Positions 7,913 through 55,447 of a stretch of 64,000 nt of DNA are shown piece by piece. How positions within the stretch are numbered: position 1 is the first letter of the stretch; each line of letters opens with the position of its first letter. This DNA comes from Pseudomonadota bacterium. Its GTDB lineage: Bacteria; Desulfobacterota; Desulfovibrionia; Desulfovibrionales; Desulfovibrionaceae. The notes under the pieces are model-generated. The model saw only the letters and a program-made list of their open reading frames with translations. It did not search any database and was not told where the DNA came from. The DNA lies in assembly GCA_018822105.1 (NCBI GenBank), contig JAHJLB010000011.1:1-64000 (forward strand). Reading direction: 5' to 3'. Position numbers and translations under genes: made by a program.

Positions 7913-8791
7913 ATGCAGCGACCCTTTGTGAACATCACGGTGGTCACCCACAACCGGCTGGAAACCACCCGCCGGACCATTGAGTCCGTGCTGCGCCACA
8001 CCCGCGCGCCGTATGCCCTCTGCGTGGTGGACAACGCCAGCGACGACGGCACGCGCGATTATCTTCTCGCCCTGCAGGCCAAGGGAAGCATCCGCCACCT
8101 GACGCTCTTCGCCAAGAACATGGGCGTGGCCTGCGCCTGCAACACCGGCTGGGCCGCGCAGGACGCGGATTTTTTCCTCAAGCTCGACAATGACATCGAA
8201 ATCCTGCACCAGGGCTGGCTTGAGAACCTGACCCAGTTCTTCCGGCCCGGCTCCAGGGTCGGCGCGGTGGCCTACAAGGTCATCGCCGATGGCGCGCCGC
8301 CCGCCATGCGCATCGGGGCCACAGCCATCTACGAGGTCGAGTTCTGCGGCGGGGCCTGCCTGCTGACCTCGCGCGCGGTGCGCATGGAACTGGGGAATTT
8401 CTGCGAGGACTACGGTGTGTATGGCGAGGAGGACGCGGACTTCGGGGTGCGCGTGGGGCTTTCCGGGCGCCAGAACATCTTCGTGGACGGCGCTGGCCAC
8501 GTTCTGCACAACGCCGACCAGGACTACGACGCGCGCATGAGGCCCATCAAGTCCCGCTCGGCCCGCAAACGGAACATCGAGCAGTTCCAGACCAATATCC
8601 ATTCCTACGACACCGGGCTGCGCCCGCTGCATGTGGGGCGAAAATTTCTGCCCGTCCGCGTTGGAATGCACTCTTGCTGCGTTCTCTGCGAGTCCTACAA
8701 GCAGAATTCGCTTGTCTGGAACAGGTTCAAGAAGGTCATCCGCTACGCCACGCAGGACATCGTCGCCGAGCACCTTGCCCAGGCCATGTAG
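7913..8791 (+). CDS. Family 2 glycosyltransferase
   Basis: The 292-residue protein has a GT-A fold signature: NITVVTHNR at the N-terminus, VVDNASDDGT at about 40-49 for nucleotide binding, and the metal-binding DND in FFLKLDNDIEI at about 86-96. No membrane helices are evident, so it is probably cytosolic. GGAGG lies 7 nt upstream of the ATG. The gene follows carbonic anhydrase by 62 nt and precedes a DUF900-type hydrolase, with no polysaccharide cluster around it, so donor and acceptor cannot be inferred. Confidence 0.88.
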   Translation: MQRPFVNITVVTHNRLETTRRTIESVLRHTRAPYALCVVDNASDDGTRDYLLALQAKGSIRHLTLFAKNMGVACACNTGWAAQDADFFLKLDNDIEILHQGWLENLTQFFRPGSRVGAVAYKVIADGAPPAMRIGATAIYEVEFCGGACLLTSRAVRMELGNFCEDYGVYGEEDADFGVRVGLSGRQNIFVDGAGHVLHNADQDYDARMRPIKSRSARKRNIEQFQTNIHSYDTGLRPLHVGRKFLPVRVGMHSCCVLCESYKQNSLVWNRFKKVIRYATQDIVAEHLAQAM

Positions 8792-8902
8792 CGGCAAAGG
8801 CCACTGCATTTTCCTGGAGCATACTGGACAACGGTGCGACATTAGGCGTATATTCCAGTGAAGAAATACGCTGTTTTGTGTTCAAGCCTCAAAGGAGCAC
8901 GC

Positions 8903-9886
8903 ATGTTTTTCATCACCAACAGGCCATTCATCGAGGGCAACAAATCCTCTGAAATGCGCAAGGTGAGCTTCGATCTCGACAACAACGAAGCCGCCCAATC
9001 CGTGTACTTCTGCTGGCGCGACGGCACGAAGAAAGCCTACGTTGAGTTGGGCAGCGAGAACTTCATGAAGGCCCTGCGCAAATCTCCGGCCCGGCAAATG
9101 CTCTTCTACATCCACGACTCGGCCCAATTCCCGGAGGAGCACATCTTCCCCATGGCCGAGACCCTCCAAAACCTCTTCGACGAGCAGGACAAGGGGCTCG
9201 TGGATGTGGTGCCGGTCATCTGGCCCTGCGACAGCGGCACGTCCATTCTCAAAGACTTCCACGAGGACCAGATAGCCGCGGAAGCCAGCGGCGTCGCCTT
9301 TGCCCGCGCCCTGGAAAAATTTCTTGTCTGGCGCGAATCCGTGAAAAGCACCGAGGCCCCCTGCCTGAAACGCATGAGCGTGCTGGCCCATTCCATGGGC
9401 AACCGCGTCCTGCGCCAGGCCCTGTTCTGCTGGTCGCGCTTCCACCGCAAGGGGCAGGTGCCGCTCATGTTCCGCAACATCTTCATGACGGCTCCGGACG
9501 TCTTCAACGAGGCCCTGGAAAACAGCCGCGAGGGCCGCTTCATCTGCCACAGCACCCGCAACGTCCTCGTCTACTATGCTTCCGATGACCGCATCCTCGG
9601 GGCGGGCACCGTGGGGCCGCTCGGTGCGGACTCCGCCTCCCGCAGATTGGGCCACACCGGCCCGGAACACATCAATCTGACCCCCAAGAATGTCTTTTCC
9701 GTCGACTGCGACGACATCAACAACAAATACGACCGTCCCAATGGCCACACCTATTTCTTGAACGACGAGAAAGGCGAGCCGGGCCGGGTGTTCCTTCACA
9801 TGTTCGACGCCATGAAGAAAGGCCGCATCGAGGGCCACGACGAGCAGCGCAACCTCATCGTGGATCTGAACTTCCGCTCCTGCTAG
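8903..9886 (+). CDS. DUF900-type alpha/beta hydrolase
   Basis: I chose ATG 8903 over the track's GTG 8858 because AAAGGAGC precedes it by about 7 nt and the protein then opens with MFFITNRPF. The 327-residue product contains the nucleophile elbow AHSMGN (SVLAHSMGNRVL) about halfway, followed by an Asp-containing stretch and a late His, as in alpha/beta hydrolases of the DUF900 type. No signal peptide is seen, and the substrate is unknown. It ends just before a long perfect inverted repeat that should terminate transcription from both sides. Confidence 0.82.
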   Translation: MFFITNRPFIEGNKSSEMRKVSFDLDNNEAAQSVYFCWRDGTKKAYVELGSENFMKALRKSPARQMLFYIHDSAQFPEEHIFPMAETLQNLFDEQDKGLVDVVPVIWPCDSGTSILKDFHEDQIAAEASGVAFARALEKFLVWRESVKSTEAPCLKRMSVLAHSMGNRVLRQALFCWSRFHRKGQVPLMFRNIFMTAPDVFNEALENSREGRFICHSTRNVLVYYASDDRILGAGTVGPLGADSASRRLGHTGPEHINLTPKNVFSVDCDDINNKYDRPNGHTYFLNDEKGEPGRVFLHMFDAMKKGRIEGHDEQRNLIVDLNFRSC

Positions 9887-48386: not shown

Positions 48387-48921
48387 CGCCAACCCCTCCT
48401 CGCCCCTGGCCGTGCTCGAGGCCCAGGTGCGAGCCGCCTGCCCAGATGCGGACTACCTGGCCCCGGTCATCGCCCCGGCCCCGCACCCCTGCGCCGACAT
48501 GGGGGGGGGCAGCGCCACCATCTCGCAGTGCGTGAACCTGGTCGCCAGCGCGGGCAAGAGGCAGCTCAAGCGCTGCCTGGCCTGCCCCCAGGGCCAGCGC
48601 CTGGCCGCCACCAGCCCGTTCCACCGGCGCCCCAGACAGGTCTATGCCTCCACCCCGAAGCCGCGCCCGGACCTGCCCGCCGAGGATCCCGCCCTGGGCA
48701 CCCTGGCCGCGACCCTGCGCGACCTCACCGCCGACGGCCGCGTGCGCGTGTCCCTGCTCGACGTCATGACCGGCCTTGGCCTGCGCCAGTACGACGACGC
48801 CATGCGGCTGGTGCGCCGGGCCGGGCTCACCACGGGCCGCCCCTTCGGCTCTGTCCCGGCCATCGCAGTGAACCATAGCCTGCGCGAGTTCCTGGCGCGG
48901 AGTGAGGGGGTGAGGGCATGA
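48379..48921 (+). CDS. Phage protein with Cys-containing centre and G9 tract, unknown
   Basis: ATG 48379 overlaps the preceding stop (ATGCGTAG) and has GCGAGG upstream. The 180-residue protein has a central KRCLACPQG segment and a C-terminal part (SLLDVMTGLGLRQYDDAMRLVRRAG) that could be a small helical DNA-binding fold. A run of nine G (48501-48509) encodes Gly-Gly-Gly after a Met and may be unstable. No family recognised. Confidence 0.75.
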   Translation: MRSANPSSPLAVLEAQVRAACPDADYLAPVIAPAPHPCADMGGGSATISQCVNLVASAGKRQLKRCLACPQGQRLAATSPFHRRPRQVYASTPKPRPDLPAEDPALGTLAATLRDLTADGRVRVSLLDVMTGLGLRQYDDAMRLVRRAGLTTGRPFGSVPAIAVNHSLREFLARSEGVRA

Positions 48922-50597: not shown

Positions 50598-51968
50598 ATG
50601 GAAAACCTCAAAATCGAAGAGTGGCCCGTGGAACGACTCCAGCCCAGCGCAACCCAGCTCCGGCAGCATGATGCCGCCGTTCCCCGCATGGCCGAGGCCC
50701 TGCGCGAGTTCGGCTTCCGCGTGCCCCTGCTGGCCAAGAGCGACGGCGAAGTCATCGACGGCCATCTACGCCTCAAGGCCGCCCTGGCCATCGGCCTGGC
50801 CACGGTCCCGGTCATCCTGGCCGACGATCTCACCCCCACCCAGGTGCGTACCTTCCGGCTGCTGGTGAACCGCTCGGCCACCTGGGCGGACTGGGCCGAG
50901 GATGCGCTGCGCGTGGAGCTTGCCCAGCTGCAGGCGCTGGACGTGGACCTGGCGCTCACCGGCTTCGACGCCCGCGAGCTGGACGCCTTCATCCTGGGCG
51001 CCACCCTGCCGGGCAAGGCCGACCCGGACGCCGTGCCCGAGCCCCCGGCCGAGCCCGTGAGCAAAGAGGGCGACCTGTGGCTCCTGGGCCGCCATCGTCT
51101 GCTCTGCGGCGACTCCCGCTCACAAGCGGACGTGGCCCGGCTCATGGACGGCGAGGCGGCGGACATGGTCTGGACCGACCCGCCCTACAATGTGGCCTAT
51201 GAGGGCAAGGCCGGGCGCATCAAAAACGACAGCATGAGCAGCTCGGCCTTCGATGCCTTCCTGGACGGGCTCTTCACCCAGGCCTGGACAGCCCTGGCCG
51301 ACGGCGGCGCCATCTACGTGGCCCATTCCGAGGCCGGGGGCGGCCTGGCCTTCCGGCAGGCCTTTGCCCGCGCAGGGTTCAAGCTGGCCTCCTGCCTCAT
51401 CTGGCGCAAGCACCAGATGGTGCTGGGCCGGGGCGACTACCACTGGCAGCACGAGCCCATCCTCTACGGCTGGAAGCCCACGGCCGCGCACACCTGGCAT
51501 GCGGACCGCAAGCAGACCACGCTCCTAGAGCACTTCGCCGGGGCCACCGTGCTGGAGGCAGCGCCGGGACAGTGGCAGATCGCCACCGGAGACGCCGTGC
51601 TGCTCGTCACCGGCCAAGGCGTCACCGTGGAGCAGCTCGACTCCAGCGTCCTCTCCGTTCCCAAGCCCGCCGTGAGCGCCCTGCACCCCACCATGAAGCC
51701 CGTGGCCCTGGTGGAGCGCATGCTGGCCAACAGCAGCCCGCGCGGCGGCCTGGTGTTCGACCCCTGCGGGGGCTCCGGCACCACGCTCATGGCGGCAGAG
51801 CGCATGGGGCGGCGCTGCAACACCATGGAACTCGACCCACGCTTTGCCGATGTCATCAAGCAGAGGTGGGAGGACTACACCGGGCAGACGGCCGTGCTGT
51901 CCACAAGCATGGCCTCTTGTCCAGCCGCCCTGCCCGCCACACACCAGGAGGCCGCCCATGCACAGTGA
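50598..51968 (+). CDS. ParB-like nuclease domain fused to DNA N4/N6-methyltransferase
   Basis: The 456-residue protein begins with a ParB-like segment (ERLQPSATQLRQHD, then DGEVIDGHLRLKAA) and continues into an amino-methyltransferase. The catalytic motif is WTDPPYNV and the AdoMet motif FDPCGGSGTT comes later, so the motif order is beta-class. Such fusions are common in phages and modify phage or host DNA. The target is unknown. It overlaps the next gene by 11 nt. Confidence 0.9.
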   Translation: MENLKIEEWPVERLQPSATQLRQHDAAVPRMAEALREFGFRVPLLAKSDGEVIDGHLRLKAALAIGLATVPVILADDLTPTQVRTFRLLVNRSATWADWAEDALRVELAQLQALDVDLALTGFDARELDAFILGATLPGKADPDAVPEPPAEPVSKEGDLWLLGRHRLLCGDSRSQADVARLMDGEAADMVWTDPPYNVAYEGKAGRIKNDSMSSSAFDAFLDGLFTQAWTALADGGAIYVAHSEAGGGLAFRQAFARAGFKLASCLIWRKHQMVLGRGDYHWQHEPILYGWKPTAAHTWHADRKQTTLLEHFAGATVLEAAPGQWQIATGDAVLLVTGQGVTVEQLDSSVLSVPKPAVSALHPTMKPVALVERMLANSSPRGGLVFDPCGGSGTTLMAAERMGRRCNTMELDPRFADVIKQRWEDYTGQTAVLSTSMASCPAALPATHQEAAHAQ

Positions 51969-52746
51969 GCAAGACCTCCTCGCCCTGGCGGCGCAGAGCG
52001 GGAAGAATGACCTGGCCTTTCTGATCAAGGCCAAGGAGGAAGCGAAGCGCCGCATGAGTGACAACGCATCGCCCGAGAACGTCCGGGCCTTCAACACGGC
52101 CAAGGACGCCGTGGAGGCCGAGGCCGCCAAGCTGCAGCCCGCCGCCCCCGGCCTGACCTTCAAGACCCAGCTGGCCGCCGTGGACTGGCTCACGGCCCAG
52201 GGCTTCAAGATCAAGAAGTCCAAGTTCAACGAGGACCTGAAAGGCCGCAAGCGGGGCGGGCCGAAGATCGCCACCAACACGGACGGCCACTTCGAGGCCT
52301 CCGCCCTGCTGGCCTATGCCCAGGTGCACCTGCCCCCCCTGGCTAGGGCCGAGGACGCCAAGAGCAGCGCCGTGGCCAACATGAAAATCACGGCCGACAC
52401 CCGGCTCAAGGAAGTGCAGGCCCAGCGCCAGGAGTTGAAGCTGCAGAAAGAGCAGGGCCAGCTCATGCGCATCAGCGAGCACGAGGCCCAGCTGGCCGCG
52501 CGGGCCATGTTCTTCCGGAGCGAGCTGGAAGGCTTCGGCCTGCGCGCCATCCCGGCCCTGATCCAGCTGGCGGGCGGGGACGAGGCCAAGCTGCCCGAGG
52601 CCCTGGAGTGGTGGGCCGACACGGCGGCAGACCTCATGGACGCCTGGGCGCAGGATCGCGAATTCACCACCGGCGACGAAGTGGAGATCCAGGGCGACGA
52701 ACCCGGCGGCGAGGAGCTGGCCGAGGATGTGGGGGCAGAAGGGTGA
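51958..52746 (+). CDS. Probable terminase small subunit or packaging protein
   Basis: ATG 51958 with AGGAGG upstream gives 262 residues. The N-terminal half resembles a helix-turn-helix DNA-packaging protein (LTFKTQLAAVDWLTAQGFKIKKSK). A helical middle (KLQKEQGQLMRISEHEAQLAARAM) and an acidic C-terminus follow. Its place two genes before the GpA large terminase, with Dam between, supports a small-subunit role. Identity is moderate, not certain. Confidence 0.72.
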   Translation: MHSEQDLLALAAQSGKNDLAFLIKAKEEAKRRMSDNASPENVRAFNTAKDAVEAEAAKLQPAAPGLTFKTQLAAVDWLTAQGFKIKKSKFNEDLKGRKRGGPKIATNTDGHFEASALLAYAQVHLPPLARAEDAKSSAVANMKITADTRLKEVQAQRQELKLQKEQGQLMRISEHEAQLAARAMFFRSELEGFGLRAIPALIQLAGGDEAKLPEALEWWADTAADLMDAWAQDREFTTGDEVEIQGDEPGGEELAEDVGAEG

Positions 52747-53573
52747 GCACTCCGACCCGCCCCGTTCTCCGCTACCATGGCGGCAAGTGGAAGCTGGCCC
52801 CGTGGATCATCAGCCACTTCCCGGCGCATCGGGCCTATGTGGAGCCTTTCGGGGGGGGGGCATCCGTGCTGCTGCGTAAGCCCAGGGTGCCGACAGAGGT
52901 TTGGAATGATCTGGACGGTGAGCTGGTGCACCTGTTCAAGGTGCTCCGTGACCCCTCGAGCGTAGAGGCATTATCCAGATCCTGCGCCCTCACGCCCTTT
53001 GCGCGAGAGGAGTTCGATCTCTCCTACGAGGAAACCGAGGACCAGGTGGAGCGCGCCCGCCGCTTCATCGTCCGTAGCTTCTTTGGCTACGGCAGCAAGG
53101 CATGTATCAGCCATGCCAAGAACGGATTTCGCTGTCTGCGCACAGGCGAGAATTCTCCGGCAGTAGACTGGAGCCGCTACCCGGAGGCCTTGCAAGCCGC
53201 CGCGCGTCGCATGCTTGGCGTGGTCATTGAGCACAAGCCTGCCCTGGACATCATCCGGCGCTTCGACCGCCAAGATACCCTGTTCTATTTGGACCCGCCC
53301 TACGTCCAGGGCCTGCGGAATCTTGAGCAGGGCATCTACCGCCACGAAATGACCGACGATGAACACCGCGAGCTGGCTGCCAGCCTGCTGGAGATCAAGG
53401 GCATGGCCGTAGTGAGCGGCTACCGCTGCGCGCTCTATGACGAGCTGTATTCTGGCTGGCGGCGCTTGGACTGCCGGGCTTATGCCGACAAAGCCAGCCC
53501 GCGCACCGAGTCGCTGTGGATATCGCCGAAGGCCCAGGCCGCAACGCAAGGCAAGCTCCTGGAGGTAGTCTAG
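52743..53573 (+). CDS. DNA adenine methylase (Dam, D12 class)
   Basis: GTG 52743 overlaps the previous stop by 4 nt. The 276-residue protein has YHGGKWKLAPWI at the start, AdoMet motif EPFGGGASVLL and catalytic FYLDPPYVQG. GATC is the usual target of the class, but specificity is not visible here. The FGGGAS codons lie on a run of ten G (52851-52860). Loss of one G would stop the frame at 52965, so the tract could act as an on/off switch. Confidence 0.9.
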   Translation: MSTPTRPVLRYHGGKWKLAPWIISHFPAHRAYVEPFGGGASVLLRKPRVPTEVWNDLDGELVHLFKVLRDPSSVEALSRSCALTPFAREEFDLSYEETEDQVERARRFIVRSFFGYGSKACISHAKNGFRCLRTGENSPAVDWSRYPEALQAAARRMLGVVIEHKPALDIIRRFDRQDTLFYLDPPYVQGLRNLEQGIYRHEMTDDEHRELAASLLEIKGMAVVSGYRCALYDELYSGWRRLDCRAYADKASPRTESLWISPKAQAATQGKLLEVV

Positions 53574-53575
53574 CC

Positions 53576-55447
53576 ATGCGCTTCCGCTTCACCAGCCCCG
53601 AGCGGCATATCTTCCGCCGCCTGCCGCCCCAGAAGCCGTCCGACTGGGCGGCCGAGCACCTCATCGTTCCCGACGGCCCCGGCGCGGGCGGCCGCTGGCG
53701 GCGCGACGTGGCCCCCTACGCCGTGGGCATCATGGACACCTGGGCCGAGCCCAGCGTGGAGGAGGTGCTCGTCTGCGGCACCCCGCAAAGCGGCAAGACG
53801 CTCATCATGTACGCCTGCCTGGGTTACTGCGTTGCCCGGCGGCCCGGCCCGCGCATGCTCTCCATGCCGGACGATCCGGCCCTGGCCAAGGTGCTGGAGG
53901 CCAAGCTCAAGCCCCTGTTCCGCCGCACCCGGCCCGTGGCCCGCCTGCTGCGCAAGTTCCGCTCCGGCGCCATCCTGTTCCGCGACGGCACCGCCCTGCA
54001 CCTGGCCAGCGCGCAGTCCCCCAGCCAGCGCGCCTCCATCTCCATCCAGGACCTGTTCATGGACGAGGAGGATCTGTACAAGCAGTTCGCGGGCGCGGGC
54101 GTGCCCGTGGTCGACCTCATGGAGCGCACGCGCCAGTACCGCCACAAGCGCAAGATCCTGCGCGTCAGCAAGCCCGTGGGCGGCGAGGAGTCGAGCATCT
54201 GGACAGCGGTCCACGCGGCGGACGAGCTGCGCCACTTCGAGGTGCGCTGCCCGGCCTGCTCCGAATTTCAGCCCATGGCCGAGGAAGGCCTGGTCTGCCT
54301 GACCGAGAGCCCCTCATCCAAACAGACAGATACCCAGCGCATCAAGCGCGAGGGCCTGGGGCGCTACAAGTGCCAGTGCTGCGGCTACCTCTGGACCGAC
54401 CACATGCGCGACGTGGCCGTGGCCGCTGGCCGCTGGCGCAGCACCGAGCCCGTTGCCCGGCCGCGCAGCGTGGGCTTCCACCTGCCCGCCATCCTCTCCC
54501 GCGCGGTCAGCCTGTCCGAGATCCTGGCCGACAAGCTGGCGGCCGAGGCCACGGACAGCCCGGACGTGAAGCAGGCCTACGCCAACGGCATGTGGGCCGA
54601 GCCGTACAGGCCCGTGGTGCGCGAGACAAAGGAAAGCGCCATCCTGGCCCTGCGCGACCCGGAGCTGCCAGCGCGCACCATCCCGGCCGGTTACGTGGCC
54701 CTGACCGCTGGCATCGACATGCAGAAGCACGGCTTCTGGTTCCTGGTCTGCGCCTGGACGCCGGGGCTCGAGTGCGCGGTCATCGACTATGGCCGCCTGC
54801 GCGACTGGGAGGACGTGGCCCGCCTGGTGTGGCACACCGCCTACGCCCAGGAATCCGGCGGGCCTGCTCTGCCTGTGTGGCGGGCCGGGCTCGACACCGG
54901 CGGCGGCAAGACCGACGAAGACCTGCTCACCCGCACGGAGGAGGCCTACGCATTCATCCGCCGCCAGCCGCCGAACCGCGTCTTTGCCACCAAGGGCGCC
55001 AGCCGCCAGATGCTCACCCCCGTGGCCTGGAACGTGCTGGACAAGATGCCCCGCTCCCGCGCGCCAATCCCCGGCGGGCTCACGCTCTACTCGCTCGACC
55101 CCAACTATTTCAAGTCCCTGGTGCATGCGCGCCTGCAGGCCGATGCCAGGCAGCCGCTGCGCCTGCACCGCGACTGCGAGGAGAGCCTCGCGCAGCAGCT
55201 CGCGGCGGAGCGCCAGGTGCGCAGCCGCAGCGGCCAGGTGTCCTGGGAGCGCGTTCACCGCGACAACCACTACCTGGATTGCGCCTGCCTGAATTTCGCC
55301 GCCGCCCACGCCAGCTGGACACCCAGCCTGGAGCTGCTTTGCCAGATAGAGGAGCGCCGCCGCCAGCAGGCCGCAGCCCAGCCCAAGCCCCAGGCCCCGG
55401 CCCCGCAGGCCATGAACCCGTACACCGGAGAGGAGCACCGCTCATGA
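53576..55447 (+). CDS. Phage terminase large subunit, GpA family
   Basis: ATG 53576 follows GGAGG by 10 nt and gives 623 residues. The ATPase domain has GTPQSGKT near residue 80. Later, LTAGIDMQKHGFWFLVCAW marks the RNase H-like nuclease domain. It cuts and pumps phage DNA into the prohead through the portal. The next gene starts within its last codons. Confidence 0.94.
   Translation: MRFRFTSPERHIFRRLPPQKPSDWAAEHLIVPDGPGAGGRWRRDVAPYAVGIMDTWAEPSVEEVLVCGTPQSGKTLIMYACLGYCVARRPGPRMLSMPDDPALAKVLEAKLKPLFRRTRPVARLLRKFRSGAILFRDGTALHLASAQSPSQRASISIQDLFMDEEDLYKQFAGAGVPVVDLMERTRQYRHKRKILRVSKPVGGEESSIWTAVHAADELRHFEVRCPACSEFQPMAEEGLVCLTESPSSKQTDTQRIKREGLGRYKCQCCGYLWTDHMRDVAVAAGRWRSTEPVARPRSVGFHLPAILSRAVSLSEILADKLAAEATDSPDVKQAYANGMWAEPYRPVVRETKESAILALRDPELPARTIPAGYVALTAGIDMQKHGFWFLVCAWTPGLECAVIDYGRLRDWEDVARLVWHTAYAQESGGPALPVWRAGLDTGGGKTDEDLLTRTEEAYAFIRRQPPNRVFATKGASRQMLTPVAWNVLDKMPRSRAPIPGGLTLYSLDPNYFKSLVHARLQADARQPLRLHRDCEESLAQQLAAERQVRSRSGQVSWERVHRDNHYLDCACLNFAAAHASWTPSLELLCQIEERRRQQAAAQPKPQAPAPQAMNPYTGEEHRS

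Follow-up and report, generated by a model that had tools for sequence, protein, structure and literature searches.

A poly-G tract in the cofactor-binding motif of a prophage DNA methyltransferase, paired with an out-of-frame stop codon, is a candidate phase switch

Introduction

Is a run of ten G inside a phage gene a switch or an accident of base composition? The question is raised by a stretch of 64,000 nucleotides from the draft genome of a member of the Desulfovibrionaceae (GenBank assembly GCA_018822105.1, contig JAHJLB010000011.1, positions 1 to 64,000), hereafter the window. It contains a prophage gene for a D12-class adenine-N6 DNA methyltransferase (52743-53573; the gene, its motifs and out-of-frame stops, and the two terminase genes beside it are on the plus strand), in which a G10 tract encodes part of motif I, the S-adenosylmethionine (AdoMet) binding motif. 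An earlier prediction, made from the letters of the window, proposed that this methyltransferase is phase-variable. The proposal gains support from frameshifts found exactly at the tract in relatives, from the repeated origin of the tract, and from a stop codon that seems dedicated to it. Together, these sequence comparisons make it probable that the tract is a contingency locus, i.e., a two-state phase switch at the DNA level where G10 is ON and G11 is OFF. The link between tract and stop codon, as seen in the sequences compared, is the strongest and new result of this work.

The tract and its reading frames

The ten G lie at positions 52851-52860, as originally predicted, and encode Gly37-Gly38-Gly39 and the first base of Ala40 in the motif EPFGGGAS. 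With a C on both sides of the run, the codons read GAG CCT TTC GGG GGG GGG GCA TCC (E-P-F-G-G-G-A-S). The glycines encoded by the tract fall within EPFGGGASVLLRK of the methyltransferase. The nearest relatives with a solved structure are Dam enzymes, where the position of the tract corresponds to VEPFVGAGSVFLN, in the AdoMet motif EPFVGAGS. The tract has the features of a contingency-locus repeat, since it is located within an open reading frame (ORF) and the gain and the loss of one G each cause a frameshift. The published cut-off for poly-G phase variation in Campylobacter is a length of at least 7 (PMC6321876).

The original prediction stated that the loss of one G leads to a stop ending at 52965, and we indeed find a TAG at 52963-52965. 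However, its stress on this state was misplaced, because the natural OFF state appears to be the gain of one G, which the prediction left out; its frame meets a TAA at 52877-52879, six codons past the motif. This out-of-frame TAA is formed where the Arg45 codon of VLLRK, a rare synonymous CGT identified in codon tests (52875-52877), joins the next codon, AAG. Either frameshifted product ends without the catalytic motif DPPY (Asp184-Tyr187, 53292-53303), which was placed by translation and by alignment to solved Dam enzymes.

Tract length and reading frame in relatives

We collected 107 relatives regardless of their tract. Nearly all of them have runs of 2-5 G at the motif, and three have runs of 8, 9 and 11. 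The one with G11 (L101, which shares its contig with L118) leaves the frame at the tract, after which 248 codons remain open. A pattern of E-P-[FY] and then nine or more G was searched in 2.9 million viral contigs and recovered nine family members. Controls that looked for every TTC-G10-C or TC-G11-C yielded L299 as well as members of other D12 subfamilies, and a scan for G6 or longer added a G7-G8 class. Overall, most relatives encode the motif in mixed codons (G2-G5), and the G7-G11 runs are scattered over about 10-17 lineages.

Among the 11 family members with at least G9, 5 are frameshifted exactly at the tract, and 233-248 open codons follow. These are L115, L116, L118 and L131 (G11, where the in-frame length is G10) and L119 (G9, where it is G8). 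Those in frame are the window, L117, L129/L197 and L299 (G10), L120 (G11, with four Gly), and L031/L123 (G9). In the G7-G8 class, 1 of 11 members is out of frame, the G8 allele L147/L164. Four isolate phages that are 88-99% identical to it in this region all have G7 and are in frame, and the difference between G8 and G7 is the sole indel across about 800 coding bases. Hence, a difference in tract length that separates an ON from an OFF frame between close relatives was found among the relatives of the window gene. No frame break occurs at the motif in the approximately 150 short-tract members (Fisher P=5e-7 against those with at least G9), and all six frameshifted alleles of the family are +1. 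The VDLFGGGG subfamily behaves alike, with L275 (G10) and L399 (G9) out of frame and L400 (G9) in frame. These three genes, as well as L113 and L241, belong to other D12 methyltransferase subfamilies with G9-G10 at motif I.

No close relatives of the window phage were found in the genus or in the sample of the phylum, and the G9 motif pattern is confined to this genome among 348 of its class. The G8+ pattern had a single match in 369 genomes of another class (L420), which is not a methyltransferase. The DNA of the G7 phages was not found in Escherichia coli genomes or in named phages. In L023 and L102 the methyltransferase homologue is split into two matching segments around residue 200, perhaps by a frameshift that lies outside any G tract.

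Repeated origin of the tract

To count origins, we used a tree of 168 rows made with FastTree from the sequence after the tract, in which many branches are weak. On this tree, 10 changes are required to account for the 11 rows of G9 or longer. The 25 rows of G7 or longer require 17, and 8 of these are forced by well-supported branches alone. Among the 14 rows of G8 or longer, pairwise identity reaches 63% at most (median 46%). The Gly codons at the motif are mainly GGC, and all-GGG motifs number 2 of 52, for 0.23 expected. The original prediction held that it would fail if relatives lacked the run. This is literally so in most of them (runs are below G7 in 143 of the 168 rows), but the run recurs independently and is not unique to the window.

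An out-of-frame stop codon linked to the tract

A conserved Arg-Lys lies six codons past the tract, and in long-tract genes it is encoded by CGT-AAR, which gives a TAA in the frame with one extra G. CGT is used at the Arg45 site in 12 of 20 genes with at least G7, against 4 of 93 short-tract genes. When the comparison is restricted to genes with a G+C content at third codon positions (GC3) of at least 0.7, these values become 8/8 (at least G8) and 1/65 (codon scan P=7e-10). Across 118 codon tests along the gene, only the run's own Gly codon stands out besides this Arg codon. The association also holds when each gene is compared with its own codon usage (CGT in 11/13, 1.8 expected, P=8e-9).

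Early stops in the +1 frame (1-8 codons past the run) are present in 13 of 14 long-tract genes, where the codon usage of these genes predicts 2.6 (P=6e-10). Genes to which Arg CGT is not available reach such a stop by other routes: L299, which has Gln at the site, has a TAG from GCTAGC, and L137 has a TAG from CTTAGA. L134 has a TAG at codon 8. The opposite frame has no comparable stop effect. The association came from exploration. After adding 23 fresh short-tract genes, early stops were present in 8/8 long-tract and 3/97 short-tract genes at GC3 of at least 0.7, and in 13/14 and 13/174 overall. The fresh genes mostly obey the rule, while L422 and L423 have CGT without the run. A final scan of viral sequences that ignored the Arg codon found only members already known.

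The short-tract genes show an opposite tendency: among 151 of them, +1-frame stops just past the motif number 7, fewer than the 24 predicted from codon usage.

A two-state switch and its alternatives

We propose that slipped-strand mispairing during replication would add or remove a G at the tract, so that the methyltransferase would alternate between a full-length ON form (G10) and an OFF form (G11) ended six codons past motif I by a TAA that selection may have put in place. A phage or lysogen population would then mix modified and unmodified genomes. Some restriction systems cut unmodified DNA, and methyl-dependent ones (Type IV-like) cut modified DNA. The likely pay-off, judging from this general knowledge of restriction, is bet-hedging: methylation would guard against some restriction enzymes and expose the DNA to methyl-dependent ones. 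A single synonymous change would end a harmful run, yet the run was kept and a stop was placed next to it, which fits a lineage that has been repeatedly in the +1 OFF state. The published behavior of poly-G tracts agrees with this and counts in favor of a switch at the DNA level: in Campylobacter, poly-G as long as this has switching rates of 1e-4 to 1.6e-3 per division, and insertions prevail at G8 and deletions from G11 upwards, which makes G9-G10 the dominant lengths (PMC8355987). We infer that slippage in this prophage is frequent and reversible, that the enzyme is active, and that switching brings a benefit.

Several observations weigh against such a switch. Variation in tract length was seen in relatives only, and the window prophage is known as G10. 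Most of the frameshifted alleles, including all those of G9 or longer, each come from a single metagenome assembly, in which a homopolymer may be miscounted. Around 15% of the other coding G10/G11 tracts in viral contigs look broken, in a rough count of ORFs made by eye, although some of these may be switches too. Simple slippage should produce alleles in both directions, but the family yielded none that are -1. When only well-supported branches are used, six independent tract-stop pairs remain, with a median P=0.06; five of them agree on average and almost none disagree. Finally, about one G10 is expected per window, since 50 of 100 dinucleotide-preserving shuffles contain one, and the G8 runs in the window do not exceed expectation. 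Run length alone therefore proves nothing in this GC-rich window, and the evidence has to be comparative. What is remarkable about the tract is its position, its recurrence in relatives, and its linked stop codon, not its length.

A first alternative, which we consider unlikely, places the slippage on RNA: RNA polymerase or the ribosome would slip on the run, which would set the level of the enzyme, and the TAA would trim the aberrant product, as in dnaX-like sites or as an "ambush" stop. The conserved stop does lie in the frame reached by a -1 ribosomal slip, and it has been argued that bacteria in general are selected for out-of-frame stops (PMC2996987), a view that is contested (PMC3700767). 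However, there is no stimulatory RNA structure past the tract, and long-tract genes are if anything less structured there than short-tract ones. A programmed -1 frameshift site with a stem-loop was rejected on the same grounds, the run being present without any extra structure in long-tract genes. Moreover, the truncated product stops ahead of the catalytic DPPY motif, and slippage on RNA alone does not explain the G11 and G8 alleles seen in DNA.

The tract could also be a mutable accident with no function, where drift of GC-rich codons occasionally produces GGG-GGG-GGG, which then slips, and the copies with a frameshift are genes in decay or mistakes of assembly. The composition of the window, the lack of the run in most relatives, and the miscounting to which homopolymers are prone in assemblies all speak for this. 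Yet it predicts neither the specific out-of-frame stop nor alleles that are exclusively +1 with about 240 codons still open, and G8-G11 persists in many lineages where a synonymous change could break it. We regard this explanation as unlikely too.

It is very doubtful that the association reflects one event, the spread by phage recombination of a short DNA cassette made of the G-run and CGT-AAG. Several long-tract genes share an identical GTGCTGCTGCGTAAG, but no further synonymous site along the gene is associated, L007, L140, L138 and L120 differ in the bases between run and stop, and the early stops of L299, L137 and L134 are made by different sequences. Least credible of all is a small gene that overlaps in the -1 frame (window ORF 52727-52879) and has the TAA as its proper stop, an idea largely refuted by its lack of conservation: in the window this frame runs open for 50 codons after an ATG, but for only 5 in L118 and 18 in L115, no longer than in short-tract members.

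The methyltransferase gene and its prophage

The gene encodes 276 amino acids from a GTG start at 52743, which overlaps the TGA (52744-52746) of the preceding gene, and its own stop codon is at 53571-53573. Its assignment to the D12 class is based on a PF02086 match (E=4.5e-21, 76.2 bits for a gathering cut-off of 22) and on the presence of both D12 motifs, EPFGGGAS (motif I, of the FxGxG/FGGG type) and LDPPY. It also matches PHROG 56 (DNA methyltransferase, phrog_56; E=1e-69). The name Dam given in the original prediction is supported at this class level; the gene scores 66.2 bits with the curated Dam model TIGR00571, below its cut-off of 114.85. It should therefore be called Dam-like, GATC being only a possible target.

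Directly upstream is a terminase small subunit-like gene whose start is uncertain (51844-52746, PHROG 57, E=4.5e-11), and directly downstream is the gene for a GpA-type terminase large subunit (53576-55447, PF05876/PF20454; PHROG 15, E=1e-123). This position makes the methyltransferase a phage gene. No cognate endonuclease lies beside it, its direct neighbors being the terminase subunits, and it does not qualify as part of a restriction-modification system. A role specific to packaging was ruled out, since the neighbors of the long-tract homologues are unrelated: terminase, queuine transferase, a primase-like protein, integrase, a clamp-like protein, NinB, and head protease. As these neighborhoods are not conserved, the function of the tract should belong to methylation itself. 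The prophage has a second DNA methyltransferase two genes upstream (50598-51968; ParB-like N-terminus and N6_N4 methylase, phrog_498), and thus encodes two.

Other G runs were noted on the way. A second candidate slippery tract in the window (48499-48509) is a G9 run that starts at the G of an in-frame ATG (ATG GGG GGG GGC AGC), inside the phage ORF 48358-48921 and perhaps at the true start of that gene. Long G runs also occur in contigs C18, C41 and C63 of the draft genome (G000), right at the contig start in C18 and C41, and these are probably assembly or sequencing artefacts. Two consecutive viral ORFs (L317:6850-8034 and 8069-9280) each have a G11 located 13-15 codons into the open frame (SGGGASS), which makes them candidate phase-variable phage genes from their sequence.

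Relation to known systems and significance

Hypermutable poly-G tracts that give phenotypic diversity have been described in Campylobacter phages (Sorensen et al. 2021, Cell Rep 35:109214, as cited in PMC9311878 and PMC10877375). This is the closest precedent: the tracts are owned by phages, in other hosts than here. The poly-G phase-variable genes of Campylobacter itself include the Type IIG enzyme Cj0031 (PMC4889913, PMC8355987). They resemble the present case in having poly-G of 7-11 inside the ORF, a frameshift upon a change of one G, and a DNA methyltransferase among the targets. However, they are bacterial, whereas the phage tract is embedded in AdoMet motif I and accompanied by an out-of-frame stop made with a synonymous codon. 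As for the Campylobacter phage tracts, they reportedly affect host recognition and not DNA methylation.

The Type III mod genes of phasevarions (ModM, PMC6902483; ModH, PMC5700931) are also phase-variable adenine methyltransferases that produce mixed methylation states. They are bacterial Type III enzymes, whereas here we have an orphan-looking D12 enzyme of a prophage, and an effect on host genes is not part of our claim. The Dam-like methyltransferase of Pseudomonas phage F116 is of the same family (about 53% identity), but in F116, as in the other cultured phages that were examined, the motif is short and in mixed codons, and CGT is absent at Arg45. Our searches of part of the literature turned up no phase-variable methyltransferase in a phage.

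Phase-variable methylation is thus already known in bacteria, and poly-G variation in Campylobacter phages. The broader claim would be that temperate phages of many hosts have convergently built a poly-G (ON at n, OFF at n+1) into the cofactor-binding motif of their own methyltransferase and paired it with an out-of-frame stop placed to serve n+1, keeping their populations mixed against opposite types of restriction; we see this as evenly balanced between true and false. If true, a convergent switch owned by phages would explain how they cope with the restriction of both unmodified and modified DNA, and phage methylomes would be population mixtures. The paired out-of-frame stop is a clean local case in which selection on hidden stop codons can be tested, and the pairing of run and stop provides a signature by which further switches may be found in sequence data without population sampling.
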